Assembly: GCA_910589415.1 (NCBI GenBank)
Contig: OU342638.1
Location: 32,275,579-32,339,578 of the forward strand
Direction of reading: 5' to 3'
DNA length: 64,000 bases
DNA from: Malachius bipustulatus
Taxonomy: Eukaryota; Arthropoda; Insecta; Coleoptera; Melyridae
Both the position numbers and the translations under genes were made by a program. The notes beneath the pieces are model-generated. The model ran no database searches, was not told where the DNA came from, and was given only the letters and a program-made list of their open reading frames with translations. Position 1 is the stretch's first letter. Each line of letters begins with the position of its first letter. Below, in pieces: positions 24,209 to 60,797 of the stretch.

Positions 24209-24303
24209 GCATAAAGGAGGTAATTATTTCCTAATAAAACTAAGTGGCCGTTGAGAATAAGTACCTACCACCTACCTACCTAATAATAATAAATAAAACA
24301 ATA

Positions 24304-25860
24304 ATGAACATCGTTATTAAGTACCATTACCAGTACCACCGGCACCATCGCCACGACCAATCAAAACTGTTCCGGGTAATAATGACGAACATAAAAAACG
24401 AAATTAGACGACGACTGAGTCTCGGCAACGTCAAGGATTTTCAACACATACCAGGACCGAAGAGTTTACCTATCATCGGAACGCTCCATCAATACCTCCC
24501 GTTTTTCGGCCGTTACAAATTCGACGCCCTCCACAAGAACGGCCTGGAGAAATACAAAAGATACGGGCCGATAGTGCGAGAAGAAATAGTGAAAGGAGTG
24601 AACATAGTTTGGTTGTTCAAACCGGAAGACATAGAGCAACTCTTCCGCACCGAGGGGAAGTACCCGGAAAGGAGGAGTCATCTCGCCTTGGAAAAATACC
24701 GCCTGGATAGGCCTCTCGTTTATAAATCGGGCGGGCTGTTGCCGTCGAACGGGGAGACTTGGCATCAGATGCGCACCGCCTTCCAGAAAGGACTGAGCAG
24801 TCCGGCCGCGGTCGCCGGATTCATCCCGGATTCCGACGAAATAATCCGGGAGTTTACCCAAATATTAGGAGCTGGATCTAAAAAAGACTTGATTGAGCAC
24901 GATTGCCTCCCCATGCTCTCCAGATTGTTCCTCGAGCTGACCTGTCAGTCTCTCCTGGATACTCGATTGGATAGTTTCAGCGCCGACGAGATGAGACCGA
25001 CTTCCGATTCGTCCAGACTGATTAAAGCCGCTTTCGACACGAACGGGTCCATTCTGAAGACGGACAACGGGATGCAGTTGTGGCGGTTCTTCCCGACGCC
25101 CCTTTTCAGGAAACTGGAGAGGGCGCAGAGGGTGATGGAGGAGTTCGCCGTGGATAAGTTACAGTTGAAGGTGACGCTCTTCGACGATACCGCTCACCAG
25201 AAAACGCTCCTGGAGAGTTACCTCTCGTCGAAGGATCTGGATTTCAGGGACATTATAGGGATCATGTGTGATTTTTTACTGGCCGGGATCGATACCTCGA
25301 CTTACACGACGAGTTTCGTGCTGTATCATCTGGCGAAGAATCCGCGAGTTCAGGACGATTTATTCGAGGAAGCTTGTAGACTGCTGCCGAGCAGACACTC
25401 ACCGATGACGAAATCGATCTTGAGTGAAGCCAAATTCGCGAAAGCCGTACTTAAGGAATCGTTGAGACTGAGACCGATCTCGGTGGGTGTGGGGAGGATT
25501 TTAACGGACGATCAAGTTTTCTCCGGTTACCGCGTGCCTAAGAAGACGATAATCGTGACGCAGAATCAGATCTCCTGCAGATTGGAAGAGTATTTCACCA
25601 GACCGGACGAGTTCCTGCCGGAGAGATGGTTGAAGGATAATTGCTTGTATAAGAAGATCCATCCTTATCTGGTTCTGCCGTTTGGACACGGGAGCAGATC
25701 TTGCATCGCTAGAAGACTGGCCGAGCAGAATATGTTGATTTTGATGTTGAGGATCGCGAGAGAGTTCAGATTGGAATGGAGAGGGGAAGAACTGGACACG
25801 AAGTCTTTGTTAATTAACACGCCAGATGGACCAATTGCTTTGGAATTTTTGAAACGATGA
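24304..25860 (+). CDS. dib: CYP302A1 (disembodied-type) mitochondrial P450, ecdysteroid 22-hydroxylase
   Basis: A mitochondrial class P450 of the ecdysteroid (Halloween) pathway. Known family members hydroxylate C22 of the ketotriol in the prothoracic gland. The first ATG at 24304 gives 518 residues; a second in-frame ATG at 24382 gives 492 and is also possible, and both leave a basic N-terminus suited to mitochondrial import. Visible motifs are the PGP hinge (residues 50-52), the dib-type IVREEIVKGVNIVWLF and RRSHLALEKYR segments, I-helix AGIDTST (327-333), K-helix ESLR (385-388), PERW (439-442) and heme loop FGHGSRSCIA with Cys467. The ARRLAEQ that follows is typical of mitochondrial CYPs. 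All catalytic motifs are intact. The gene has no intron and sits on the same strand inside the first SVWC intron. Codon positions are GC-richer than the flanks. The assignment to CYP302A1 rests on recognising the family sequence and would be settled by phylogeny. Confidence 0.9.
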   Translation: MNIVIKYHYQYHRHHRHDQSKLFRVIMTNIKNEIRRRLSLGNVKDFQHIPGPKSLPIIGTLHQYLPFFGRYKFDALHKNGLEKYKRYGPIVREEIVKGVNIVWLFKPEDIEQLFRTEGKYPERRSHLALEKYRLDRPLVYKSGGLLPSNGETWHQMRTAFQKGLSSPAAVAGFIPDSDEIIREFTQILGAGSKKDLIEHDCLPMLSRLFLELTCQSLLDTRLDSFSADEMRPTSDSSRLIKAAFDTNGSILKTDNGMQLWRFFPTPLFRKLERAQRVMEEFAVDKLQLKVTLFDDTAHQKTLLESYLSSKDLDFRDIIGIMCDFLLAGIDTSTYTTSFVLYHLAKNPRVQDDLFEEACRLLPSRHSPMTKSILSEAKFAKAVLKESLRLRPISVGVGRILTDDQVFSGYRVPKKTIIVTQNQISCRLEEYFTRPDEFLPERWLKDNCLYKKIHPYLVLPFGHGSRSCIARRLAEQNMLILMLRIAREFRLEWRGEELDTKSLLINTPDGPIALEFLKR

Positions 25861-31080: not shown

Positions 31081-32458
31081 CTATTTTTCTGGATAAATTC
31101 CCCTAAGACAACTTCAAATTCTAATGTCTCTCTTACCTAAATCAAAATTATCAAATTTAAAAATAAAACGATATTTTAAGACATATGGCACACAAGCCAT
31201 GTGTTAAAATGTTGGTTAAACACAGTTAAAGTAATTTTGAAATCACATAAAAAATAGAGGTGGGAAAAAATAACCAATTGGCAACATTGGCACCAAATGA
31301 TTTTGCACTTTTTTTGTCTGTGGTTTTTGGTTTAGTTATTGGTTTTTGAATGACAGTTCTAATATTGTCACCACAATTTGACCTATTAGTTTGACATGGG
31401 ACATGGACCAATGTGTGTCATAAATACTCTTATTATTAGGTAATTTATCATGATACAACTATTAAGGAACCTGCATTACCGACACTGACGCTTACTAGGG
31501 TAGTGCATTCTAATTCGCACAAAAGTTGGGAATATCAAATTCAACTTCAAAAACGTCAGATTTTCTATAAACGTATAATTAACTCTCTAAAAATTAACAT
31601 AATTTGTTATTTAGTCCGCGTATTTTCTAGAAATGGTAAACTTTTTGCTGCGTTAGAGGATGTTTTAACAATAAAAAGGGCTTTCTACTTGTTCGCGTTG
31701 CCTAAAAGGTAATATCTGTTACTGGGATTTTTTGGAGAAAAAAGCTGGGCACTAGTACTGGAAAAAGTACGACCTTATATACCTTACCTACTCGTAAACA
31801 ATTCGAGTACTAATACTCCGAAAATGTACTCGTAAGTATTTAGGTAGGTATGTGTTGTGAGTTGTGACTGTTCTGGGCGAAATACCTAGTATTATTAATT
31901 AAAATACAATAAATATTACTACTGTGTAGTAGGTACTTTCCTTTTGTAATCATTTTTAGTAAATTTGCTGCACAGCGTTCGTTTATCGTTTGATAGGATC
32001 GTTTGATGTGGTTAACAAATTGACAGAGTTATTTGTATTGCGCATGCTCACCACAAGCACTCCGCAGCCGCAGGTAGACTTCCAAATTAAGTCGGGGTAC
32101 ATGGTGTTGGTGTATGAATTTTACTGCTCCAGTTTTTACTTTGAGTCACTGGTTTCACTCTCTTGACTTCTTATTTCCGAACGTATTTTGGATGAAAAGA
32201 GCAGAAAGTGTCAACTCCAAGACTCCAACTCAACAGAGTATGCAAGCTCAAACTGAACGCACCTCTACTATACCAAAATTTCAACTGTCAACTGTCAACG
32301 TCCAAAGTGCCTAATGTCAAATATAATCATTTATTAACCAAAAATGTTTTGTTTATTGTTTATTGTTTTCGTTTTGTGGTTTTGTCTGTGAGGTGAGGTC
32401 CAATAAATAATTTGAGTGATTATTTAAATTTAAAATATTTAAAATAACGACGAACATA
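31081..32458. other. Intergenic region upstream of the zinc finger gene
   Basis: Mostly A+T-rich. At about 31464-31500 there is a one-sided copy of the foldback element (AAGGAACCTGCATTACCGAC and onward) lacking its right arm. TACTCGTAA-like segments cluster near 31790-31840. The final 150 bp probably form the 5' leader of the zinc finger gene. Confidence 0.5.
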
Positions 32459-33916
32459 ATGAGTTCAGAGGAAACGTACTATCGTACTCAGCATCAAGAA
32501 GATACAATGAAAACTGAAAAAGCAGAAGGTAAAGAATTAGATTACTCATTGTCTTTACTCTCCTCCAATATGAAGAGTGAAAATGAACAAGATCAAATTT
32601 GCCAGAAATATCCCCGTCGTGATAGTGATGACAATGCTTGTCTTTCACTCCGCATCAAAAAGGAACCAGAAGATTCACAATTAGGCTTGCAAATTCCTGT
32701 AGAAAATTTGGCGGTAAAGGAAGAAATTGACATCGAAGAATATAAGCCAGGATGGGCATTGTACAAGGAGCCTAACGTAGGAACGATAAACATGCCAAAC
32801 TGCTCTTCAGGAAGTAACATTGAAGAACAGACGAAGTATCATTGTGCTCATTGCCCTTTCAAAACAAACTGGAGAGGTAATTACATCCTGCATTATAATC
32901 GTAAACACAATCAATCTACGGAAGTGTATAAATGCAAGGAATGCGCTTATGAAAGTAAAATTAAATCCAACCTTGTTCAACATTTTAAAGGCAAACATTC
33001 ACTAGAAGTAAAAGTGCACAAATGTCTGGAATGTTCATATGAAACCAGATTTAAGAGTGGTTTGACTCAACATTGTATAATTAAACATTATAAAGAAGCT
33101 GCAGTGTTTCAGTGTGAGAAATGTTCGTATAAAACGAGATATAAATGTGATTTGAGCAGGCATTATAAACGTAAACATTCAAAAAAAGGTAAAATGTACA
33201 AATGTGCTGAGTGCTCGTATGAAACAAGTTATAAAGGTGATTTGAGCATCCATTATAAACGTAAACATTCTAAAAATGCAAAAATTTACAAATGTGAGGA
33301 GTGTTCTTTTGAAACAAGATATAAATATGTTTCCGTCCAACATTATAAAATGAAACACACAAAAGATGCAGAAGTGTACAAATGTCAGGAATGTTCTCAT
33401 GAAACGAGATGTAAAGGCAGTTTGACCAAACATTATAAATATAAACATTCAAGAGACGCAACAATGCACAAATGTGAGGAATGTTCTTATGAATCAAAAT
33501 ATAAAGGCGCTTTCACTCAACATTGTAAACTTCAACATGCTAAAGAAACTTCAGTGTACAAATGTCAGGAATGCTCGTTTGAAACAAGAGGGGAAATTTA
33601 TCTGATCAAACATTATAAACGTAGACATGCAGAAGAAGCTGAATTGTACAAATGTCAAGAATGTTCGTATGAAGCTAGGAGGAAAGATCTTTTGACTCGA
33701 CATTATAAACGTCAACATACTGAAGAAGTAATGTACAAATGTCAGGACTGTTCATATGAAACAAGGAGTAAAGATCATTTTACCAAACATTATAAGTGCA
33801 AACATTCAAAAGATGCTGCAGTGTATAGATGTCAAGAATGTTCTTATGAAGCAAGGATAAAAGATTATTTGACTCGCCATTATGTACGTAAACATTCAAA
33901 AGAAAGTAGGAAGTAA
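32459..33916 (+). CDS. C2H2 zinc finger protein with 12 fingers
   Basis: A single-exon gene of 485 residues, probably a nuclear DNA-binding protein. Residues 1-126 are acidic and unstructured, with SUMO-acceptor-like motifs (RIKKEPED near 62-69 and AVKEEID near 81-87). From residue 127 to the end there are 12 tandem fingers of the form C-x2-C-x12-H-x4-H spaced about 30 residues (90 bp) apart, most starting YKCQECSYET and containing an HYKRKH-type histidine pair. All 24 Cys and 24 His appear intact. The linkers are not TGEKP but KEAEV-like, so the fingers may bind less cooperatively or contact RNA or protein. The fingers are similar enough at DNA level to have arisen by recent tandem duplication. 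Targets cannot be inferred. AATAAA follows at 33963. Confidence 0.9.
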   Translation: MSSEETYYRTQHQEDTMKTEKAEGKELDYSLSLLSSNMKSENEQDQICQKYPRRDSDDNACLSLRIKKEPEDSQLGLQIPVENLAVKEEIDIEEYKPGWALYKEPNVGTINMPNCSSGSNIEEQTKYHCAHCPFKTNWRGNYILHYNRKHNQSTEVYKCKECAYESKIKSNLVQHFKGKHSLEVKVHKCLECSYETRFKSGLTQHCIIKHYKEAAVFQCEKCSYKTRYKCDLSRHYKRKHSKKGKMYKCAECSYETSYKGDLSIHYKRKHSKNAKIYKCEECSFETRYKYVSVQHYKMKHTKDAEVYKCQECSHETRCKGSLTKHYKYKHSRDATMHKCEECSYESKYKGAFTQHCKLQHAKETSVYKCQECSFETRGEIYLIKHYKRRHAEEAELYKCQECSYEARRKDLLTRHYKRQHTEEVMYKCQDCSYETRSKDHFTKHYKCKHSKDAAVYRCQECSYEARIKDYLTRHYVRKHSKESRK

Positions 33917-35787: not shown

Positions 35788-38700
35788 TCAACACCCGGCG
35801 ATCTCGCCGTCGGTTCTCGTACTGAACCTCTCCTCGTACACCTTCCGCCTGTGCCCGGCCTCCAGGACGGGTTTCAGAGTCGCCTCTATGCAGCAGACCT
35901 TCCGCTGGAAACGCATACGGTCGCGGGCGTGCTGCTCCCAGGGCCCCCGACGGGCCGCTTGGTACGCGTACGACCATTTGATCATCGGGTGGACTTCGCA
36001 GAGGATCGAATCTGCCGCAAAACGAACCTGGAATATGAAAATTGAATTGAATTTTTTTTATATATAAAAAAAGGTAAATGCGGTTACAGTAGAATCACAG
36101 ATTCAGTAGACTATGTGTGGTATTTTTTTGCACAAATCTGCCTGAAGAAAATGAAACAAAACACGAAGATGACAAGATAACTAGAACTTTTTGACGAGAT
36201 TTATTTTTTAAGAAATTCTTAGAAATGATAATAATTGTCATTAGTGGCATTACAATACAAGCCCCCTCATTCAGATAATGGACGTTATGGGTAAGGTCGT
36301 CCTAATGTTACAGTTCACAATGTCATTCTATAGAAGTCACCTGTCATGGTGAATAAAGAGCACTAGTTCATGCATAGAAGTCAGTACAGTTTGGGACGTT
36401 ATAGAAAGAATAGAAAGCAGTGAGATAAATAGCCAAGAGAGAAGGCAGTACCAGTTGTGTTTAAATTAAGAGAGGAGTTTAAAAAGAAGAAGCAGAAAAA
36501 GAAAACCCAGAAGAAGAGAAAGAAGAAGAAAAAAGAAGAAGTAAGATGGTATTTTATTTGGAGATTATTGTAATGTAAATAGAGATTGAAATAATTGTTA
36601 TAAACTATTGTTAAAGTTGATTGAGATAAACAAAGTGAATTAGGGTTAAAAATTATAACAGCAAGTTTAGAAAGCAGTAAAGTTAAGTGCATAAAAGATC
36701 ATTTTGTAGGACATAAAATTTTCCAACACCAATACTGTTGAAACGATTATTTAATCTTCCATAGTAACTAAGAGGTTATCATCACCAAATATAAAAATAA
36801 ATAAAAAATAAAAACCAAATACGACACCCTGTATGCATTGTTATTCACAAGTCCAATCTAATAATAATAAGCCCCTGAAATTTATTTTTAATTTTATCAT
36901 ATTGGTAAATCCTCTTCCTCCTGTCTGATACTGTTTCACTTTGGTATGTCTACCATGATAAAAATAAAAAATAAAACAATTTACTTGAAACCATAAACAA
37001 TAAACAGTTCAATAAAACATGACAAATCTTGATAAACATTCCCATTTCCTCCTTTTATCTAATCAAAACTGCATTTTTTCGTGTTCAGCAGAACAATAAT
37101 TATTGTTTTCAAAGTGAAGCAATTTACTTGAGGCTTCAGTATACCTTTTAACTGCTCTGATAAGAAGGCGGTTTTTCATGTTTTCACATTGTTTTAGTTA
37201 AAGAGAGGAAAGTTACAAGACATTAGGGGTCAAGCAATCTTATACTGAATTGATGGAAGGTTACTACTGCAAAGCTAAACAACATAACTGCCTGCCATAT
37301 TTGTTTATTTAAACACCAGCAGTACCAGCACTAAATAGTTCATTTCTGCTGTAATATACTCACTTGTGTTGCATCATTCTAATTATCTTTATCTGTTCTC
37401 AATTTTTATTGCTCTTTCTGAATACAATTTAAAATGCTAAAATAAACATTTCATTCTTGCATTTATTTATTTATTGCTATAAGGCAATTTTTTATCAAGT
37501 TCGAAACTAATCACTTTATAGTTATTTTTCTGAAAAGTATGCAATAAACAAGTTTTTGAAGAAAATAAGTTTGTGGTGTTGATGAAATCATTCACCATCA
37601 CCAGTGATTTTTCCTTGCCATTAACTGACAAATAACAAAAGAAAAGAAACTTTCATTTAGTCTAGAGCAAGTCGTATACGTATAATTCTGTTGGTACTTG
37701 GACTTAGTCCCTATTTATTATTTATAAGTGTCGTAAGCGGCCAGTACATACTCACAAGCAAAAGAAAAAGAAACCTTACACTTTAGTACTTTACACAGTA
37801 TCAGGGTAGATTTTTGTAAATAAATGACATTGAAAATAAGAAAACAATAATTATTAAAATAAAGGAAAATCTGTATCAATTATTTCTAACCAATAGAGGA
37901 CGTAAGTGCCAAAACTTTTACTACGCTGGACTAAATTTCACTTCAGTGACTGTCACAAAAAAGACTTATCTTACACAAGCAAAATTTCATCCAAATTCAA
38001 TAGAAGATGTAATAATTTTCCGGTTACTTGAAGCATAAATTATTAAAGCGTCGTAAGCTTCGAGAGTACCACTCACAAGAAAATAGGGCCATCTCACAAT
38101 TATTGAAGATTTTCTTTTCACAAAACCACCCTAAGCTAAGCAAAAACGTCGTATCTGACATTTTCCTAAAAATTGAGTCGTATCTACAAGAGAAATCAGA
38201 TATTTCTACGTCTTTTGTTTTGATTCAAGCAAACATGTCCTATCAGCAATTTCATTTTTAAGCAATTCAAATCGCCCAGGAAATTTGACACAAACTACAG
38301 AAATGTGGTTTGTTTAAAAAAATGTCGTAACTGCAGTAACTGCACTTTTTTTTAAGATATACAATTAATTTTTCTGAGTAACGTTTACGCAAGAAAATAC
38401 ACAATAATACCTTAAAAAATTGCTGTAAGCATTTATCACATGATGTCATAAATACCCCAACCAAATCAACAATTTTGTAGATACGACGTTCTTGCTTAGA
38501 ACGTCTTGCATAGAAATGTTAAATGAAAATAAGAACACAATCATCCATTTTATATAGCACCCAGTTTATTGTGATGAATTTGTCAATATTAAAATTAAAA
38601 AAAAAAAAAAAATGAAACCCTGGAAGCCATTAACTCTTTCTTATCAACAAATGGCGTAAGCGCCAACGTTAAAAAAAATCAAAGACATTTTTGTCTGAAC

Positions 38701-41700
38701 ACGAATAAGGAATAACATTAAATATTAAGAAAACAAGGAGGATATGATATAATGATGCTTACGACGCCGGATATTTTACTTTACAGGCTGACATTTTCTT
38801 GTAACTGATACTGTTTTTATAGTCAACATAAGCGAATTGCTTACAGCATTGTTTCATCTAGAAAAGAGTGTGTATGATTTTGTGGTTATTTGGATTTGGA
38901 GCTTACATCCTTCCCTTCATTATAAATGTCGTAAGCTTCGAGAGTACCTTGATAAGCAAATAAGGTCGTTTTTATCTTTTATACTATTACTGAGTAGAGA
39001 CTTCTATGGCAGAAACGTTTATTAGATCAATTAAAAAGAAAAAAGTTTTTTTTAAGAACTTGTTTTCTTCTTTATAACTTGGGACATACAAAAGACAGTT
39101 TTATAAAAAAAAAAGGAACATCATGAATCGATGGCGTAAGTGGCAAAATTTCAATAAATTAAATTTTTTTCAAGAAAACAAGAGTATATGTATTATGATG
39201 GTTACGCCGAATGTTTTACTTTACTGACATGTATAATAGAACAAACGTCTTGAAAAAAGGAAAGAGTGTTTTTTTTCTGCTTTCTATAACTTGGCATGTA
39301 CAAAAACCCGATTTATATAAATGGCGTAAGTGCCAAAAATTTAATAAATATCCACAACGATCTTATACAGACTTGATCATTAGCAATAGCAGCATTTTTT
39401 CGTTCATAAATGGCGTAAGTGATAGAACTTAAATATCTTCGCAACGTTAAGAAGTTGCCATGATAAGAAAAAATTAAAACTTACAAGAAAACAGAGTATA
39501 CTAAATGTGAGGCTTACGCCGGATAATTTACTTCACTAACTTTCAAGAATGGTATAAAAAAAAACAATATTGCTTATCGTCAAATCCGTATCATTTAGTT
39601 GTAACTTGGAACTTACGTCTTGCATTATAAATGTTGTAAGCTTCAAGAGTTATCTAACAGACTTCCGACTTGACAAAAAATAGGGACGTTTTATGTTATT
39701 ACTGTGTAAATGGCGTAACTAGTAAAACTTTTTATTATTCTTTGTAAGATGTGGACAAAAAATTGAATTTTAAGTATCTGACCTGCCGCTATGATGCTTA
39801 CGTCGGATAATTTACTTATCCGACTGAAAAGAACGACATATTTTAAAACTAAAATTGCTCACAGTCAATTTTATAGCATTTTTTCACTTAAAGTAAGTCG
39901 TATCAGTAATTTGCAGCTTACGTCTTACATTACGACAGTCATAAGCTCCCAGAATGTGGCGTAAAAAAGATAAGGTAAAACGTCTTCCCTTCTGTTTTTT
40001 TTATTATTTTCAACAGGCTGGACATATTTTAAACTTTCTCTACTTTCGGCGGGGTGGGTTAGGGGTTAAGAGAGGGAAAAAAAAGACGAGAGGAACAACA
40101 AGGAGAAACCGGTACTGGCAGAGAGAGCAGGAAGTCGACTCAAAGAAGATTAAAGCTGATTTGATTGATCAAACTCTAAGAAATGTGTCCGGATACTGGT
40201 TCCAAAAAATTACCATATAAAAGAACGAAGGTAGGTCATATGAGTATAAGCATAAAGCACATAAAGTGCAATTAGCCTGTTAGGTGGGGTCGGAGCATTC
40301 CTCCATCGCCCATAACAGTTGTCATGATGGTAGTGCCCGAAACTCCAACATAGAGAGCTTCCACATCCAACAGCAGAGCCAGCCAGAGTACCAGAACAAG
40401 CACAGACACGTGTTTCGCTCTATTGGAGCTCATCAGTGTGCTGCATCTGGAGTATCCGGAAGGATGTTGTCGGATGAATGGGAGTTGGGGCCAACCTTAA
40501 GCCAGCAATTAACACGGATCTCCGTGTGGTGTAAAAAAGAGCGACATCTAGCGGTCAGTCTAAAGAACTAACCGTGAGTTCACTCTAAGTTTGTTGCAGT
40601 TTCAGGCGCCAACAATGGCAGGCGATTGACAATCATGAATAAGAGAAAAATTAAAAGAAGTCTTAGCTGACCTGAACGATCTCTTATACTGAAAAAACTG
40701 CTTACCCTCTTTTTTGGTATCCCGGGCGAACTCCCCGAACTGCTCCCGACATTCCCGTCGACGACGTCGTCCCCGAAATCGTTCTCGCTCATCGTCCCTT
40801 CATCGTCGCTGTCGTCTTCAGTCTCACTCTCCCCAACTAAATCGAAATCTTCCGAGCAATCGTCGCAATCGTCCGCATCACCGAAAACCACAAAGCTGTC
40901 CTCGCTCTCCGAGATCGAGGGGATTCGAAGCCTCGCCCTGGGTAAATCCAGCTCGTCGAGGGCACCCAAAAAGGGACAACCGGGAGGCTCGTCCGAATCA
41001 GACTCATCTGAATCGGATGACTCGTCGTCACTATCGTCGTCATCTGGTTTCGGAGCCCCGTTGATGTAGCATAAATTGATGGATGCTAACGTGGAGGAGG
41101 CGGGGTGGTCGATTGAGTCGTGGAGCTCGGACGAGTCAGGGAGAGGGTTGGCGAAATTTGTCGAGTGGTCTATGACTAGTAGAGGGTCTTCGATATCTGC
41201 ATTCGTATCTAGAATGGGATAATTTGTGTAATTAGTTGATGAGTTTTAGGTGTTTTTAAGAATTATTTTACCTGCTAGTTGGTCTTGTTCCCAGTCTATG
41301 GTGTTTTCGGTTTCAAGGGTTTCCAGGATCATCGCTTCCATGATTATCTGCTTGTTTGTGTTGTTCTTGGACTGTTTCGTGTCTTTTCCGATGTTTTTGC
41401 ACCGTTTTCCCGGTGTTTTTTTGCCGTTTTGCGTCATTTTTCTTCCCCTGGTGAGACACCTTTTTCTTGAACTGGTGGTGGTCGTTTCGGGAGATGTTTC
41501 GGTAATTTGAATTTCAGGAATTAGATTAACATTGCGGGGCAAGGAACAACTAGAATTTGTGGTAGGGGTAGATTTTGTGACGTTTTGGGGGACCACGAGA
41601 GGCTCAGACTCAATTTTTATCACATCTTCGCCATTTTTCTCGCATATTCTACCCGAATGATCATTTTGACAATCTTGGGGTTCCCTTTGGCGGCCCACGC

Positions 41701-42318
41701 CATGGCAACTTCCGGTTCCGGCCATGTGATCTTCTTCTTTTTTAATGTTTACAAGTTCTTTATGTTTATTCTGCGCCGCAGCGGAAAAATTAGGGGTGTT
41801 GTTTATATTTTTAGGGGTCTGATTGTAGTTGGCGAGTAATTTCTCGGTCGAGATGTCGTTTCTCCCGTTCTGGATGTAGAAATTCGGGTTCTCGAAGTGC
41901 TTCTCGGGCAAAATAATGGGAAACCCGGACGGGAGCACGTGCAGGCTGCGCGTACCGTGCATGAATTCTTTGCTCTTGATCGGATCGGGCGCCATGTTTG
42001 GACTTCTCCTTATGGTCACTAAATTCCTATGGATGCTCCAAATGTCGCACATTTTAAGCAAAATTATCCGACACAACAAATCCACTGACCTCTGACGGTG
42101 TTATTATGTCGAAAGTTCGCTCCTCTGACTCTGTGCAAATGTAAACCTCGCATCAAATGCAAATGCCAACAAGGGTACGGAATGACGCTGCTCGTTTTAT
42201 CGACTTTATCCACTTTATTCAACGTCGTAGCGTAGAAATCCACTTTGAACACTTTGGAAGACACTTTGAATAAACTATCGATAAGATTGATTTCACTAGA
42301 CAACACTGAATTAGCCAT
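35788..42318 (-). CDS. PPP1R15: PPP1R15-type (GADD34/CReP) regulatory subunit of the eIF2alpha phosphatase
   Basis: The product recruits PP1 to dephosphorylate eIF2alpha and ends the integrated stress response (family knowledge). Exons on the reverse strand: 42318-42090, 42018-41272, 41208-40706 and 36027-35788. Introns are 71, 63 and 4678 nt, phases 1, 1 and 0. The total is 572 residues. The last junction reads KKR then VRFAADSI, creating the RVxF-type PP1 docking motif. It is followed by QAARRGPWEQHARDRMRF, the hallmark C-terminal core that contacts PP1, actin and eIF2alpha. Upstream is a long disordered acidic region with SISESEDSFVVFGD and DDDDSDDESSDSDESDSDE. The start is less certain. 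Exon 1 (MANSVLSSEIN, good Kozak context) joins exon 2 through donor GTCAGT and acceptor AATTTAG; alternatively translation starts at 42052 (MCDIWSIHRN) without that intron. The third intron carries array J and a hammerhead ribozyme. Confidence 0.85.
36028..37680 (-). other. PPP1R15 intron 3, 3' part
   Basis: A+T-rich with a purine-rich AAGAAG run near 36480-36545. The reverse frame 36399-36692 reads through the polypyrimidine complement of this run and is not a gene. Nothing else is recognised. Confidence 0.45.
37690..39960. repeat. Tandem/inverted array J inside PPP1R15 intron 3
   Basis: Diverged copies of AAATGGCGTAAGTGCCAAAA (near 38650, 39128, 39318, 39406 and 39708) alternate with AATGTCGTAAGCTTCGAGAG (38036, 38921, 39625) and with inverse ATGATGCTTACGCCGGATAA forms (38750, 39195, 39505, 39790). 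The unit therefore carries GGCGTAAG and its complement CTTACGCC in alternation. The copies are too degenerate to define a single period; full cycles are roughly 350-650 bp. Open frames here are artefacts. Confidence 0.75.
40266..40570 (-). mobile_element. GC-rich island carrying the ribozyme, probable retroelement end
   Basis: A sharply bounded GC-rich segment of about 300 bp within an A+T-rich intron, non-coding on both strands, containing the hammerhead ribozyme at its centre. In other animals such ribozymes sit in the repeats of Penelope-like elements or in retrozymes; no reverse transcriptase is present here, so a solo terminal repeat or retrozyme-like unit is the best guess. No target duplication was identified. 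Confidence 0.45.
40391..40450 (-). ncRNA. Hammerhead ribozyme (type I, short stem III)
   Basis: Read on the reverse strand. Stem I 5' strand is CCAGA, an internal loop, then GCACA. The core CTGATGA follows (40436-40430). Stem II is GCTC, loop CAATA, GAGC. Then comes GAAA (40416-40413). Stem III is a minimal self-complementary ACACGTGT that shares its first A with GAAA. C17 at 40405 is the cleavage base. Stem I 3' strand is TGTGC, an internal loop, TCTGG. Every conserved core base is present and both stem I segments pair perfectly. Cleavage is predicted between 40405 and 40404. The tiny stem III matches hammerheads of Penelope-like elements and retrozymes, which often act as dimers. It is in the sense orientation of PPP1R15, about 260 nt into intron 3. 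Confidence 0.9.
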
Positions 42319-50694: not shown

Positions 50695-51200
50695 TTTCGT
50701 GCCACCTTCCACGGATCCCGCGGTCCTTGATTGCCAGGTCACACAGACCCCGTTGAGGATCATTTGGTATCAAGAGAGCAGAATTTGAAAAGGGTAAACT
50801 GTGCCGGGCGGAAGGCGCGCATTACAGGGTTCCACTACGCGCATTTTGTCGCGCTGCCATCTAGCGATGAGGGATTGAACTAAGCATACATCTAATTGCA
50901 TGGACGGAAGTTCAACGTAGAAAACCTGCATTACCGACACTGACGTTAGTGTTGGTAATACAGGTTCCCGACACTGACGTTAGTGTCGGTAATACAGGTT
51001 CCCTACGTTGAACATCCGTCCGCGCCATAGATGTAAGCTCAGTTCAGTCCCTCATCGCTAGATGGCAGCGCGACAAAATGCGCGTAAGGGAACTCTGCAA
51101 TGCCGAACGCCTGGCACAGTTTACCCTCTTCAAATTCTGCTCCCTTGATACCAAAGGATCCTCAGCGGGGTCTGAGTGACAATCACGGACCGCGGGAGTT
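50695..51200. repeat. Long near-perfect palindrome (about 510 bp)
   Basis: The left arm (about 50705-50920) and right arm (about 51003-51197) are inverse complements over more than 190 bp. Shared blocks include ATTTTGTCGCGCTGCCATCT, TTTGGTATCAAG, GGGTAAACTGTGCC and CCGCGGTCC. The arms differ by scattered substitutions and small indels. The centre (50924-51004) is made of foldback mini-element sequence. A foldback transposon or an inverted duplication at a foldback insertion would look like this. Confidence 0.85.
50924..51004. mobile_element. Foldback mini-element, copy 3 with partial second copy
   Basis: ACCTGCATTACCGACACTGA pairs with the following TTAGTGTTGGTAATACAGGT. A second partial copy (GACACTGACGTTAGTGTCGG and onward) follows directly. 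It forms the centre of the large palindrome. Confidence 0.75.
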
Positions 51201-55989: not shown

Positions 55990-58900
55990 TCATGACACCC
56001 ATTCCATCAGTCTGGTTCCCTGAACTAACTTGTGCAGCCCCGTTACTGAATGAGTTTCATATTCTTCCGGACGCATTTTTTGTTGTCCGTATATCTCCTG
56101 TCTTCTGCGGTCCAGAGCCTCGCATTCACACAGTACATGTTTTGCTGTCTCCTGGGCCCTATTGCATTCTCGGCAACTTAGGTCTCCATTGAACAGTCCT
56201 ATTTTATTTAAGTGTTCTTTTAGGGCAATATGTCCCGTTAGTAATCCCACTGTAATGCGTAACTGATTCCTGCTAAGTAATAGTAGTTCTTCAGTTGTCT
56301 TTTTTATGGGTCCTTTGATAAAGGCTTTCCCATGTTGGTGTTTGGTCCTTTTGTCCCAATATATTTTGTGTTTTTCTTTGACCCATATATTAACCTGACC
56401 CCGTGCTGTACTTTTTGGTACTCCCAGGGCAGGTTCTGGGCCAATGTATTTAGCCGAGGATCCTCTTCTTGCTAGCTCGTCGGCTTTTTCATTGCCTGTG
56501 ATTCCTCTATGTCCTGGTACCCACATCAAGGTTACCTTGTTGCGTTCTGCCAGGGTTTCGAGATTCTCACTGCATTCCCACAGTAGTCTGGACGTTATCT
56601 TGGGGCTTTCTATAGCCCTCAGAACCGCCTGACTATCTGTTAATATATTGATCCGTCTATTTTTGTAGGCCCTCTTATTGTTTATGCTCGCGCAGTGTAA
56701 CATAGCGTATATTTCCGATTGAAATACAGTTGCCCACTGCCCGAGAGATATGGTGTGTTGAGTATTGTCCAACTCATTGTATATGCCAGCTCCAGTTCCT
56801 TGGTCGGTTTTTGACCCGTCAATGTACCAGGTTGTTCCGACCAGCCTGTTGCTGTCTGTGGGCTCATTCCATTCCTCTCGATCTTTGATGCTCACCTCAA
56901 AGCTCTTGTGGAATTGGAATTTTGGAGCCATGTGGTCTGTGTTTGCATCTAGCAGGTCCACTTCCACATATTTTTTGATTCTATTGTGTCCAAGTTCCGC
57001 ATATTTGCCCCTTGGTTCTTCTTGCAGCCTTAGTCGTGCCAGTCTTGCCTCTCCCATTATCATTAGATGAAGTGGTGGGAGGTCTAGGAGGACTTCCATT
57101 GCTGCAGTTGAAGTAGTTTTCATTGCCCCCGTTATTCCAAGGCATGCGAGTCTTTGCACCTTGCTGAGCTTGTTTATCGCGGTATTTTGTTGCATCTTTG
57201 TCCACCATACCAGAGATGCATACAACAACATTGGTCTAATCACTCTGGTGTACGCCCAGTATACCATATGTGGTTTTAATCCCCATGTTTTCCCATAAGT
57301 TCGTCTGACCATCATGAATGTGGTCTCCGCTCTTCTTTTAATCCTGTCTATCTGTTGGTTCCAGGTGAGTTTTGAGTCTAAGATTACCCCAAGATATTTC
57401 ACCTCTCCCGATATTTGTACGTTCCTGCCTCGAAGTTTTAGTGGTCCTAGGCCCACCAGTTTCCTTCGATTAGTAAACGCTATGATGGTTGATTTGGAGG
57501 GACTTATGTTCAGTCCCTCTTCGTTTGTCCATTTGGTTACAACATTTAAGGCCCTTTGCATGCAGGGCCTTATTGTGTCGTTAAATTTACCTTGAATTAG
57601 TATGACAAGGTCATCAGCATATCCTATGCTCTTGATTCCCTCTTGGTCCAGACGTTTCATTAGCTCGTCCATAACAAGGTTCCATATCAATGGAGACAGT
57701 ACGCCTCCTTGTGGACACCCCCTTGCTACCTGAGCCACCACAGTCTCCCCAAATAGGGATGTGCATACCAATCTGCTTTTCAACATGAAGTCTATCCACC
57801 TGCATATTGTTGCATTGATTCCTCTGTTCCTCAATGCATTGGAGATTGATTCTAGGGAGGTGTTGTCGAACGCACCTTCTATGTCCAAGAAAGCACATAA
57901 TAGTACTTCCTTGTGTTTTATTGCGTATTCTGCCTTTTCTACCAGGTGGTGTAAAGCTGATTCCGTTGATTTTCCTGTTCTATATGCATGTTGGTCTTGA
58001 TGAAATGGTCTGTTTGCCAGGACATCATCCCTTATATGCCTATCGAGCAGTTTTTCTAAAGTCTTCAGCAAAAAGGACATGAGACTTATGGGTCTTAGAG
58101 ATTTTGCCCCTTCCTGTCCCGTTTTCCCAGGTTTGGGTATATAAATTACTCTAATTAAGGTCCAGGCTTTGGGTATGTGCCCCAGTGCAAGACTGCCCCT
58201 GAGGATCATACTTAGCCTCTGTGTCAGAAGATGTGGTCCTTTCTGCAACATTATTGGGTAGATGCCATCTATACCCGGCGATTTATAGGGTTCAAAGGAG
58301 TTGATTGCCCATTTGATTTTGTTCTCGTTTATCACCGATTTCGCAACCTGCCAGCTGTCCCTGTTCGTCCTCTTTGGGGTTCCCAGTTCTGCATTTAGGC
58401 AGTCTTGTGGAGATAAATCGGTGACTCTAGAACCTGGAAAATGGACTCTGAGTAATTCTCTCATTGTGTCCTTTCCCGTTTCCGTATATTTGCCACTCTC
58501 TGTTTTCAGAGTGTGTATGGAGCTCTGGGGTTGCTTTGAGAGTATTTTATGGAGTCTAGCATATTCTTGAGTTCCTTCTATGTCCTCACAATGCTTTCTC
58601 CATGAATCTCTCTTTGCTTTCCTCAGTGCTTTGTTGTATTCTGTGAGAGCCTTTCTGTATATCTCCCACTTATTTGTTTCCTTCGCTTTATTGAAGTATT
58701 TCCTAACTTGTCCTCTTTGTGCAGCTAGGTTTCTGTTCCACCAGGGCACATTCCTGTTGGAGTCCCTGCTGACAAGGGGACAGTTGTTGTTATAGGCCGA
58801 AGTGATTGCATCCTGCACTTGTCCTGCTACCACTTCTAGGTCTATTGTGTTTTTTATCGTATTTCTCGTCTGTTTTAAACCGTGCTCCAGGTCTGTCTTA

Positions 58901-59631
58901 TAAGACTCCCAGTTAGTTTTCCGAGGATTGCGATAAATTTCTTGTATGGTTTTTTTTCCATTTATTGTAAAGTTTATGTGTCTGTGATCCGAGCAACTAA
59001 CCTCATCAGATACATGCCAGTTTTTGACATAGCTTCCTACGTATGGTGTAGCTATAGTTATGTCTATGACCTCCTTTCGTCTTGAGTTGACAAAAGTAGG
59101 TTTATTTCCTACATTTAATATGTCTAGATTGTTAGTCATTATAAATTGTAGTAGTGACTCACCTCTTTCGTTGGTGTTTGTGCTTCCCCAAGTTGTATGG
59201 TGCGCGTTGGTGTCGCACCCGATGATCAGCTGTGGTCCTTTTCCCCCGCAGTCTCTCACCAGTTTTTCTACCTCTTTGGGTGGTGGTAGTTCCAGGGCGT
59301 CATATGGGAAATATGCTGATCCGAGAATTATCTCCCTCGACATATTCCCGCTGACTGTCCTGATTTTTGCTACCGTCAAATCCCTGGAAGAAAGGTTAGT
59401 TAACGGAAGTATTTTAAGTCCTTTTTTGACTAGTATGCAGGTTCTAGGGGTTTCATGGGATCTACTGTAAATTAGTTCTCCCACCCCCCCTAGTCCCATT
59501 ACCTTACCTTTGTTGATCCAAGGTTCTTGTATGAGGGCCACATCAAATTCCCTCATTGCCACAGTAAGGGCAGCTGATGCCGCCTTACTGTGCTGGAGGT
59601 TCGCTTGAAGGACCCTGATTTTGCCCGCCAT
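55990..59631 (-). CDS. LINE ORF2: endonuclease, reverse transcriptase, RNase H
   Basis: 1213 residues. The N-terminal APE-type endonuclease begins LQANLQHSKAA, with LIQEPW, GCDTNAHHTTW and SCSDHRH as catalytic blocks. The central reverse transcriptase has ALDIEGAFD (motif A, about 57865-57890), GCPQGGVLSPL (motif B) and GYADDLV (motif C, about 57605-57625). The RNase H domain has YIDGSK (about 56810-56825), SEIYAML, TDSQAVL and PGHRGITGNEKADELA. It ends with a Cys/His cluster (CRECNRAQETAKHVLCEC). All catalytic residues expected for the three enzymes are visible. The start overlaps the end of ORF1 by 47 nt in a different frame, so translation probably depends on termination-reinitiation or leaky scanning. 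Confidence 0.95.
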   Translation of the reverse strand: MAGKIRVLQANLQHSKAASAALTVAMREFDVALIQEPWINKGKVMGLGGVGELIYSRSHETPRTCILVKKGLKILPLTNLSSRDLTVAKIRTVSGNMSREIILGSAYFPYDALELPPPKEVEKLVRDCGGKGPQLIIGCDTNAHHTTWGSTNTNERGESLLQFIMTNNLDILNVGNKPTFVNSRRKEVIDITIATPYVGSYVKNWHVSDEVSCSDHRHINFTINGKKTIQEIYRNPRKTNWESYKTDLEHGLKQTRNTIKNTIDLEVVAGQVQDAITSAYNNNCPLVSRDSNRNVPWWNRNLAAQRGQVRKYFNKAKETNKWEIYRKALTEYNKALRKAKRDSWRKHCEDIEGTQEYARLHKILSKQPQSSIHTLKTESGKYTETGKDTMRELLRVHFPGSRVTDLSPQDCLNAELGTPKRTNRDSWQVAKSVINENKIKWAINSFEPYKSPGIDGIYPIMLQKGPHLLTQRLSMILRGSLALGHIPKAWTLIRVIYIPKPGKTGQEGAKSLRPISLMSFLLKTLEKLLDRHIRDDVLANRPFHQDQHAYRTGKSTESALHHLVEKAEYAIKHKEVLLCAFLDIEGAFDNTSLESISNALRNRGINATICRWIDFMLKSRLVCTSLFGETVVAQVARGCPQGGVLSPLIWNLVMDELMKRLDQEGIKSIGYADDLVILIQGKFNDTIRPCMQRALNVVTKWTNEEGLNISPSKSTIIAFTNRRKLVGLGPLKLRGRNVQISGEVKYLGVILDSKLTWNQQIDRIKRRAETTFMMVRRTYGKTWGLKPHMVYWAYTRVIRPMLLYASLVWWTKMQQNTAINKLSKVQRLACLGITGAMKTTSTAAMEVLLDLPPLHLMIMGEARLARLRLQEEPRGKYAELGHNRIKKYVEVDLLDANTDHMAPKFQFHKSFEVSIKDREEWNEPTDSNRLVGTTWYIDGSKTDQGTGAGIYNELDNTQHTISLGQWATVFQSEIYAMLHCASINNKRAYKNRRINILTDSQAVLRAIESPKITSRLLWECSENLETLAERNKVTLMWVPGHRGITGNEKADELARRGSSAKYIGPEPALGVPKSTARGQVNIWVKEKHKIYWDKRTKHQHGKAFIKGPIKKTTEELLLLSRNQLRITVGLLTGHIALKEHLNKIGLFNGDLSCRECNRAQETAKHVLCECEALDRRRQEIYGQQKMRPEEYETHSVTGLHKLVQGTRLMEWVS

Positions 59632-60670
59632 CGAGTCCTTTCAACACTCGGAAAGTCACCCTTCCGAGGCTGTAGTACGCTCGAAACCGGGATCTCTCGA
59701 GGGTCTTGAATGACCCCTCGTCTATTGAAAAGGCCCGGATTACTCCCTCCTTCTCTTTTTTCTTGCTGAGTTGTAGCCAGCTACCCACGTTCAGACCTGG
59801 ATTCTGCCTCTCTAAACGTGTCCTTACTGGCCCATCCTCTTCTTCTGGTCCCGGGATGTAGACTAGAACTCTCGGCCTCTTTGGTAGGTCCTTGGCCTCG
59901 ACTGTTGTCAGGGCCATCCCTTCCCAAAGTCCGCCCAGTGTCCCAATCACCCCCACGAGCCAGATTTTTGTTTGTTCGTTTGCGCAGTGCATCCATAGGA
60001 CTCCTCCGCTAAACGATACTTTTTCGAATTGCAATGGACTTTTGCTCCCCGAGGGTGTGCTGTCCATTGCTTCGACTAGTTTCTTCTGGATCAGTTCTGT
60101 CTTTCCCTGATCCAGAGTAAATTCAGGATGGCGTCTGTCTATCACCGCCATCCTTAGTCCAGACACTGCCTCGCTGTAGCTCCCTTTAGGCTTCGTTTCC
60201 GTTGCCTTGCTGGGTCCCTTGCCAGACAGTGTTTGACTATTATTACCCTTCGCTCTCTTTGGGGCTTGGGGTGGAGTTTTCGAGTCGTCCCGAGATCTTT
60301 TTCCACTCTTCGGTTTCTTCTCTTTTGTTGCTTTGCTGTTGGTTGGACGTTTTTCAGTCCATGTGCCAGCAGCAATTTTTTGTTCCTTTCGGAGTTTCCT
60401 TTTCTGGGCCCCCGAAAGTCTTTTTTCTTTTATTGTTGATATCTGCAGTCCTATGTTTCCAATCCCTGCAGATATTGTATCAGCGGTCCCTGTTGTCCCC
60501 ACTGATGATTCACTGCCATGGTCAGATTTGTCATCCTCCATGGCAGTTCCTGGCGTTACATTGCCCTCCCCAGAATCCGAGGGGCAGCCTGGCACTAGGC
60601 CAGGGAGGGATTCTGAACCAGTGGTTCTACCCTCCTGGGGTACTTCTTCTTTCTGTTTCCGTTCCGCCAT
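59585..60670 (-). CDS. LINE ORF1 (DUF4780-like nucleic-acid-binding protein)
   Basis: 361 residues. The N-terminal third is Ser/Gly/Glu-rich, followed by a strongly basic segment (AQKRKLRKEQKIAAG, then KKPKSGKRSRDD). The C-terminal domain starts near YSEAVSGLRMAVIDRRHPEF and includes RVLVYIPGPEEE and NPGLNVGSWLQL, the pattern I associate with DUF4780 domains of insect retrotransposon ORF1 proteins. No CCHC zinc knuckles are present, unlike most Jockey/I ORF1 proteins. Its likely role is binding element RNA. It overlaps ORF2 by 47 nt. Confidence 0.85.
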   Translation of the reverse strand: MAERKQKEEVPQEGRTTGSESLPGLVPGCPSDSGEGNVTPGTAMEDDKSDHGSESSVGTTGTADTISAGIGNIGLQISTIKEKRLSGAQKRKLRKEQKIAAGTWTEKRPTNSKATKEKKPKSGKRSRDDSKTPPQAPKRAKGNNSQTLSGKGPSKATETKPKGSYSEAVSGLRMAVIDRRHPEFTLDQGKTELIQKKLVEAMDSTPSGSKSPLQFEKVSFSGGVLWMHCANEQTKIWLVGVIGTLGGLWEGMALTTVEAKDLPKRPRVLVYIPGPEEEDGPVRTRLERQNPGLNVGSWLQLSKKKEKEGVIRAFSIDEGSFKTLERSRFRAYYSLGRVTFRVLKGLDGGQNQGPSSEPPAQ

Positions 60671-60797
60671 TCTTCTTTCTTCGTGTGTTGTTTGGTTCGC
60701 GCCGTTTCCGGTACCTTACCCTGTCGGGAAAGGCCTTCCCCTATCCACCACCTGGGGACGCGCCCGATGGGGGTAACACACAAGCCCCACACGGGTT

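Follow-up and report, generated by a model that had tools for sequence, protein, structure and literature searches.

A hammerhead ribozyme in an intron of a PPP1R15-like gene of Malachius bipustulatus probably belongs to a retrozyme sharing a hairpin with Penelope-like elements

What is a complete hammerhead ribozyme doing in the sense strand of an intron of a protein-coding gene? Such a motif might serve the gene that carries it, or it might be the trace of an element that once inserted there, and both ideas had been put forward in a preliminary description of the locus, which was made from sequence alone. We thus analysed the ribozyme, its host gene, its relatives in the same genome and the mobile elements that might have moved it. 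Throughout the text, the window is the whole stretch of DNA analysed here, 64,000 nucleotides long.

The host intron probably belongs to a PPP1R15-like gene

The gene lies on the minus strand, and its three exons give a continuous frame (...PKKR/VRFAADSILCEVHP...):

41272-42052, minus strand: exon 1 of the PPP1R15-like gene, from its first ATG (42052)
40706-41208, minus strand: exon 2
36028-40705, minus strand: host intron of 4,678 nt, donor GTAAGC, acceptor TTCCAG, splitting KKR/VRF
35788-36027, minus strand: last exon, with the PP1-binding region KKRVRF... and the stop codon at 35790-35788

Judging from its predicted product, the gene is likely PPP1R15-like. The product contains KKRVRF, which we take to be a motif of the PP1-binding type, and it matches the Pfam family PP1c_bdg (PF10488) with 20.9 bits (E = 3.2e-4), a score below that family's own cut-off of 26.1, so that this identity is not certified. 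Counted from the start of this intron, the ribozyme has its first base at nucleotide 256 and is in sense orientation to the gene; it had been placed about 260 nt into a 4.7-kb intron of PPP1R15, which agrees well with what we found.

The motif has the full architecture of a type I hammerhead

40391-40450, minus strand: type I hammerhead ribozyme, predicted cut between 40405 and 40404 (sequence, Rfam RF00163 at 32.4 bits, helix coordinates)

Everything that had been reported of this motif, namely all core bases, a closed stem II, a stem I in two segments and a minimal stem III, is found at 40450-40391 of the minus strand. The core consists of CTGATGA and GAAA, and stem II is GCTC/GAGC with the loop CAATA. 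Stem I is made of an inner part (GCACA/TGTGC) and an outer part (CCAGA/TCTGG, 40450-40446 paired with 40395-40391), separated by an internal loop, while stem III is minimal and palindromic (ACACGTGT). With C17 at 40405, cleavage is predicted between this nucleotide and 40404. The motif therefore has what characterizes type I hammerheads, i.e. the invariant CTGANGA, GAAA and H17 and three stems with stem I open.

The Rfam model RF00163 (Hammerhead_1) aligned to the motif over its full length (positions 1-45) with 32.4 bits. Measured against 4,227 families, this gives E = 5.7e-6 when 1 kb is searched and 3.6e-4 when the search covers the whole window. As this score is 1.6 bits under the curated gathering score of 34, a default Rfam scan reports no hammerhead here. 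On one hand, this shortfall might speak for a chance hammerhead-like match, and so might the single match that a stricter descriptor (stem I of at least 5, stem II of at least 4 and stem III of at least 3 bp) gave in 150 Markov-shuffled windows. On the other hand, the E value of 3.6e-4 was obtained in 64 kb against all families, and the outer stem I is additional, being demanded by neither the stricter descriptor nor the Rfam model. Moreover, 4 of 39 sibling loci elsewhere in the genome exceed the cut-off, with 34.7 bits (0 of 20 in the first set fetched, 4 of 19 in the second), and there are compensatory changes in stem II, where, among the 47 complete copies (that of the window included), 3 have U-G and 5 have C-G at a pair that is mostly U-A, a covariation that may reflect few events because the copies are related. 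Paired changes in stems I and III were not seen among these 47 copies. Taken together, we regard the chance of a spurious match as next to negligible; the motif is, by its sequence, a genuine hammerhead, and the original observation is confirmed. The preliminary description had let the ribozyme depend on a covariance score reaching the threshold. The score does fall short of it, but this is outweighed by the E value, the siblings above the cut-off and the covariation in stem II.

No second hammerhead was found in the 64-kb window by two descriptors or by Rfam at E ≤ 1, and viral contigs contained no exact match to a hammerhead pattern.

Related copies form short non-coding units dispersed in the genome

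A 140-nt query had at least 47 matches in the genome, with 92-100% identity, when 40 of 1,445 first-look candidates were scored; the range is 92-97% once the window itself and one 39-nt piece are set aside. A 32-nt core occurs at 77 genome places with at most one mismatch, the window included, and 41 of these are exact; the reversed-pattern control gave 0. The 39 sibling loci mentioned above were fetched in two rounds (20, then 19). From tandem copies, the putative circular unit was found to be 464 nt long, and 451 nt in a second subfamily. Such units stand head to tail in L018, L026, L012, L021, L023, L037 and other loci, with no ORF between them. When four query pieces from the proteins of three PLE families (PLE, Penelope-like element) were compared with the 39 loci (87.8 kb), no PLE coding match was obtained at E ≤ 0.01, and the element is thus not an autonomous PLE.

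Metazoan non-LTR retrozymes are defined in part by a small unit that is non-coding, has a single type I hammerhead and occurs in tandem and in many dispersed copies, and all this is seen here. The type I hammerhead had been said to have the architecture found in retrozymes and Penelope-like elements, and this is borne out. The likeness to metazoan retrozymes, as far as these are described in the accessible text of Cervera and de la Pena 2020 (PMC7229834), includes the small non-coding unit, the single canonical type I hammerhead, the head-to-tail arrangement, a GC content under 50%, the many copies and the strongly self-paired RNA. The unit of 464 nt slightly exceeds the 150-450 bp quoted in that text. 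What goes beyond it are the ends, which could be resolved here and reveal a PLE-type tail, head-to-head twins and a hairpin common with a PLE.

The ribozyme is not equally preserved in all copies. Many of the 47 complete ones have the full core, and others have lost a core base; L022 and L036, for instance, read CTAATGA, and L033 and L038 differ in several places. Mean divergence per site is about 0.02 in the core, 0.025 in the stems, 0.033 in the loops and 0.046 in the flanks, a contrast that is biased because the collecting query was centred on the hammerhead and favoured conserved ribozymes.

Retrozyme insertions end in the manner of Penelope-like elements

The ends of the insertions were read by hand from alignments and then classed by a script. 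The 3′ end of the retrozyme is either site A (after ...TTTATTAATT or ...TTTTATGCATTAAT) or site B, about 33 nt later, and the tail preceding site B contains TTGAGTATACTTGCC. Among 24 insertions with a single outward 3′ end, 12 end at B and 8 at A, while 4, including that of the window, were left unclassed. In 16 further insertions two copies stand head to head with both 3′ ends outward, and here 12 combine A with B, one has B twice and three are not fully classed. Random pairing would give at least 12 one-of-each twins in 13 with a probability of 0.001. The twin with two tailed ends (L029) goes against the one-of-each rule; its left boundary may be an internal break. An optional tail of 30-40 bp at one of two inverted 3′ ends, which is a Penelope-type trait, is therefore present in the retrozyme insertions.

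Words of 10-15 nt are common to both flanks in 15 of 37 insertions (39 loci and the window, with L035, L042 and L046 left out for their unclear ends), although simple, AT-rich sequence makes up some of the counted words (L011, L041), and the word in L011 falls within the end of the element itself. In mismatched flank pairs, taken from different insertions, words of at least 9 nt occur in 2.6%. The published insertion signature of Penelope-like elements consists of twin and tandem geometry, two classes of 3′ end and flanking duplications. As far as can be read from sequence, the ends of the retrozyme insertions match it.

A closer comparison with GIY-YIG PLEs, namely the Adineta Penelope (PMC3846280) and the anole PAc (PMC11167929), again within the available text of both papers, leads to a similar picture. 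These elements likewise occur as tandem or inverted pLTR-like copies with target-site duplications, have an optional tail of 30-40 bp at one inverted end, and possess a hammerhead followed by a stem-loop in which the 3′ end falls. Unlike them, the element in the window has no ORF, and its hammerhead is canonical, with an internal loop in stem I, whereas theirs are of the minimal PLE type; the duplications of 10-15 bp in other copies also differ from the 8-10 bp quoted there.

As an observation in its own right, the presence of one tail per head-to-head retrozyme twin (12 of 13 fully classed; L009-L047) might be a clue to how Penelope elements prime on both strands.

The retrozyme and one family of Penelope-like elements share a 3′-end hairpin

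PLEs are abundant in the same genome. At least 150 GIY-YIG matches were scored out of 775 candidates, several frames are 823-855 aa long, and the elements occur in tandem arrays and head-to-head pairs. We compared the retrozyme with 50 partly overlapping loci out of these 775 candidates, including 20 stretches downstream of GIY-YIG domains, and another PLE family may thus match better than those described below. Two families are of concern here, P1 (L071-L073, L085, L090 and later L105 and L106, with L070 and L093 as copies ending at site A) and its sister family P2. Both have RVT_1 and GIY-YIG domains, and their proteins are 58-66% identical over two P1 pieces. The single long P1 frame that was examined is split (330 + 498 aa).

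The inverted repeat TATACTCA/TGAGTATA is present in both the retrozyme and P1 and, among the loci fetched to that point, nowhere else. In P2 the arms of the hairpin are TATACCCA/TGGGTATA, a compensatory change relative to P1. This inverted repeat is contained in the two parts that retrozyme and P1 have in common (E 0.03), TTATACTCAT..GACCTA preceding site A and TTGAGTATACT following it. The shared hairpin is short, with 18 nt exact and about 11 nt more, and its position relative to both ends is nearly equal in the two elements. P1 has two ends about 35 nt apart, of which site A precedes the right arm by 3-7 nt and site B follows it by 21-24 nt; the corresponding distances in the retrozyme, as read from the alignments, are about 7 nt and about 18 nt. 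The two P1 head-to-head pairs examined, L071 and L072, each have one of each end and flank repeats of 11-12 nt (read by eye).

The similarity was assessed by shuffling. Five retrozyme regions were set up for this test and three were run (L018, L023 and L045, the last being picked as a carrier of the ATATGACCTA form). The 3′ region of L045 matched P1 with a score of 55 (z 12.4), and L018 and L023 did so with z 7.2 and 9.6; in each case 0 of 3,000 shuffles reached the score. Against P2, z ranged from 3.8 to 10.1, with 12 of 3,000 shuffles reaching the lowest; the weaker similarities are those of L023 (12 of 3,000) and of L018 to L092 (3 of 3,000). Three control PLE regions gave nine z values between -1.1 and 0.1 (L045: -0.1, -0.4 and -0.4); these were 100 nt downstream of the hammerhead-like motif (in L079 and L076) or upstream of the ORF (in L078), positions not tied to mapped start sites.

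A 61-nt pattern of the P1 hairpin and tail was found at 77 genome places with at most 3 mismatches, 57 of them exact and 0 in the control, and as it also matches pLTR-ORF junctions, these places are not all insertion ends. The counts suggest that P1 has been recently active. Long head-to-tail arrays of PLEs were observed in G000 (contig C11, C2:60.81-60.83M and C3:53.64-53.65M), with many open frames of 833-841 aa at a spacing of about 3.33 kb.

The unit is probably moved by a Penelope-like element

Could the copies then be nothing else but solo pseudo-LTRs of an autonomous PLE that has a canonical hammerhead in its own pLTR, with no independent retrozyme existing at all? Truncated, short copies that end in this way and have such a tail are indeed left behind by PLEs (PMC3846280). 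Moreover, in P1 and P2 a hammerhead-like motif (absent from the Rfam reports at E ≤ 5) lies just upstream of the hairpin, and the ORF start (ATGGCCAAC) follows directly after it, the ORF of P1 beginning inside the tail. This idea seems improbable, however, as the 464-nt units are directly joined without an ORF between them, the 39 loci contain no PLE coding match, and, apart from the hairpin and some short AT-rich stretches, the unit had no match in the 50 PLE loci.

Another possibility is that a LINE, rather than a PLE, mobilises the retrozyme. Non-LTR elements are able to move short RNAs in trans, and a LINE-like ORF (RVT_1, endonuclease, RNase H) is located in the same window. That the 3′ end takes two alternative forms, that twins stand head to head and that the hairpin recurs in a PLE family all argues against this, and we consider it very unlikely.

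The reading that we prefer, with a probability of roughly 0.84, is that the hammerhead in the window belongs to a solitary copy of a retrozyme, i.e. of a 464-nt non-coding circular unit that would be reverse-transcribed and inserted by a PLE enzyme. A metazoan retrozyme mobilised by a P1-type PLE is the best reading of these sequences. The unit would be laid out as hammerhead, structured body, hairpin and a tail of about 33 nt. Tandem units would be transcribed, the hammerhead would cut the transcript to unit length and a host ligase would close the circle; the P1 protein might then recognise the hairpin on the retrozyme RNA, cut AT-rich DNA and begin synthesis at site A or B. The intron of the PPP1R15-like gene would retain one untailed unit from such an event.

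In the anole PLE, reverse transcription starts inside a stem-loop, both strands are cut and extended, and the start site is alike on both strands; the PLE tail is the sequence between two start sites of reverse transcription (PMC11167929). Strand-equal start sites do not obviously predict the one-of-each rule that we see in twins. We propose, and hold it to be somewhat better than an even bet, that the retrozyme is a specific parasite of P1 that carries its start hairpin and is copied in trans, and that each complete insertion comprises two primings on opposite strands, at one untailed and one tailed site, in keeping with an enzyme that acts as a dimer and has two start sites at its disposal. 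If this is true, it would name an autonomous partner of a metazoan retrozyme and give a rule for twin insertions of the Penelope type.

As for the enzyme that mobilises hammerhead retrozymes in animals, PLEs are called a 'strong candidate' (PMC7229834, PMC7761336), because of shared type I hammerheads, tandem occurrence and coexistence. Our search of the literature on retrozymes and PLEs, in which subscription journals were thinly covered, did not find a report of a shared cis-signal. The retrozyme itself belongs to a known kind; the link between retrozyme and PLE at the level of sequence would be new. In one and the same genome, a retrozyme and a PLE family agree in their 3′-end hairpin, in having two alternative ends and in the geometry of their twins, and the sister family has a compensatory change in the hairpin. 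The shared hairpin makes the question of the mobilising enzyme directly testable with purified protein.

The copy in the window is a solitary unit and probably a passenger of the intron

40213-40645, minus strand: retrozyme body, 433 nt between candidate target-site duplications, one tailless unit (genome-copy alignment)
40646-40653: 5′ candidate target-site duplication, TAATTTTT on the minus strand (flank-word comparison)
40205-40212: 3′ candidate target-site duplication (flank-word comparison)
40232-40249, minus strand: left side of the presumed reverse-transcription-start hairpin, TTATACTCATATGACCTA, 18 nt identical to P1
40322-40641, minus strand: self-pairing RNA block that includes the ribozyme (fold z-score of -4.67, the minimum among 16 windows)

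Similarity of the window copy to the genomic copies spans about 40648-40207. The closest among the 39 fetched loci are identical to it at 94.2% over 274 nt and at 91.7% over 436 nt. Its 3′ end, which the end-classing script did not assign, is site A when read from the alignment; the right arm of the hairpin sits in the tail, and the tail is absent from this copy. The flanks have a word of 8 bp only in common, which is no more than suggestive, since words of at least 8 nt occur in 6.7% of mismatched flank pairs. A gapped test for a target-site duplication that considered nothing but the window gave no significant result, as 11% of random pairs did equally well; the later one used the element ends learned from other copies.

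The element stands out as an island with a GC content of 0.48-0.50, compared with values of 0.28-0.38 between 36300 and 40139. The fold z-scores were calculated for 16 windows of 320 nt in the host intron, three of which were deliberately placed on the element. According to the helix coordinates, the ribozyme is enclosed by long helices. The native fold of the hammerhead was calculated at -13.8 kcal/mol and the minimum-energy fold at -18.8 kcal/mol, a gap of 5 kcal/mol. Stem III alone, at 0.0 kcal/mol, gives no stable hairpin, whereas a duplex of two copies reaches -10.3 kcal/mol. So tiny a palindromic stem III suggests that cutting would need two RNAs or tandem units, and the window copy may now and then be cleaved alongside other retrozyme RNAs.

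Might the host nevertheless have co-opted the ribozyme, with cutting of the PPP1R15 pre-mRNA tuning splicing or intron decay? The sense orientation, the intact core bases and the position 256 nt into the intron could be seen in favor of this idea. Yet the window copy is one among dozens dispersed in the genome, it is monomeric and its stem III is weak, and such uptake by the host is hard to credit. The role in splicing or intron decay that had been proposed before finds no support in a monomer whose native fold lies above the minimum and whose stem III is unstable alone. The proposed alternative, a retroelement trace, is supported by the multi-copy mobile element and the 8-bp candidate duplication. 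As the ribozyme belongs to one of many copies of a small mobile element, the window copy is probably a passenger of the intron and not a switch that controls the host gene. Cleavage is unlikely to affect PPP1R15, and its effect on the host transcript would probably be small, because a single ribozyme excises no circle and stem III suggests that two RNAs or tandem units are needed. The identity of the mobile element removes the need for a host function of the intronic ribozyme.

Hammerheads inside introns of protein genes are also described in the available text on the amniote RECK and C10orf118 genes (PMC3088659). Unlike these, which occupy one place and are conserved across species, the window copy belongs to a dispersed mobile family.

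Other features of the window

A frame that starts within the ribozyme itself was considered as a coding exon because it resembles a signal peptide, and it was dropped when a protein search gave 0 relatives:

40433-40269, minus strand: 54-aa frame from an ATG in the hammerhead core, signal-peptide-like (protein search)

Further features lie outside the host intron:

55990-60715, minus strand: LINE-like element with a 1,216-aa frame (endonuclease, RVT_1, RNase H), preceded by a 376-aa DUF4780 frame
50899-51025, minus strand: 34-bp tandem repeat matched weakly by MIR2599 (35.9 bits; the cut-off is 120), more likely repetitive DNA than a microRNA
32420-33916, plus strand: C2H2 zinc-finger array in which a 90-bp unit recurs about 10 times
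24244-25860, plus strand: cytochrome P450 encoded in a single unbroken frame (538 aa)
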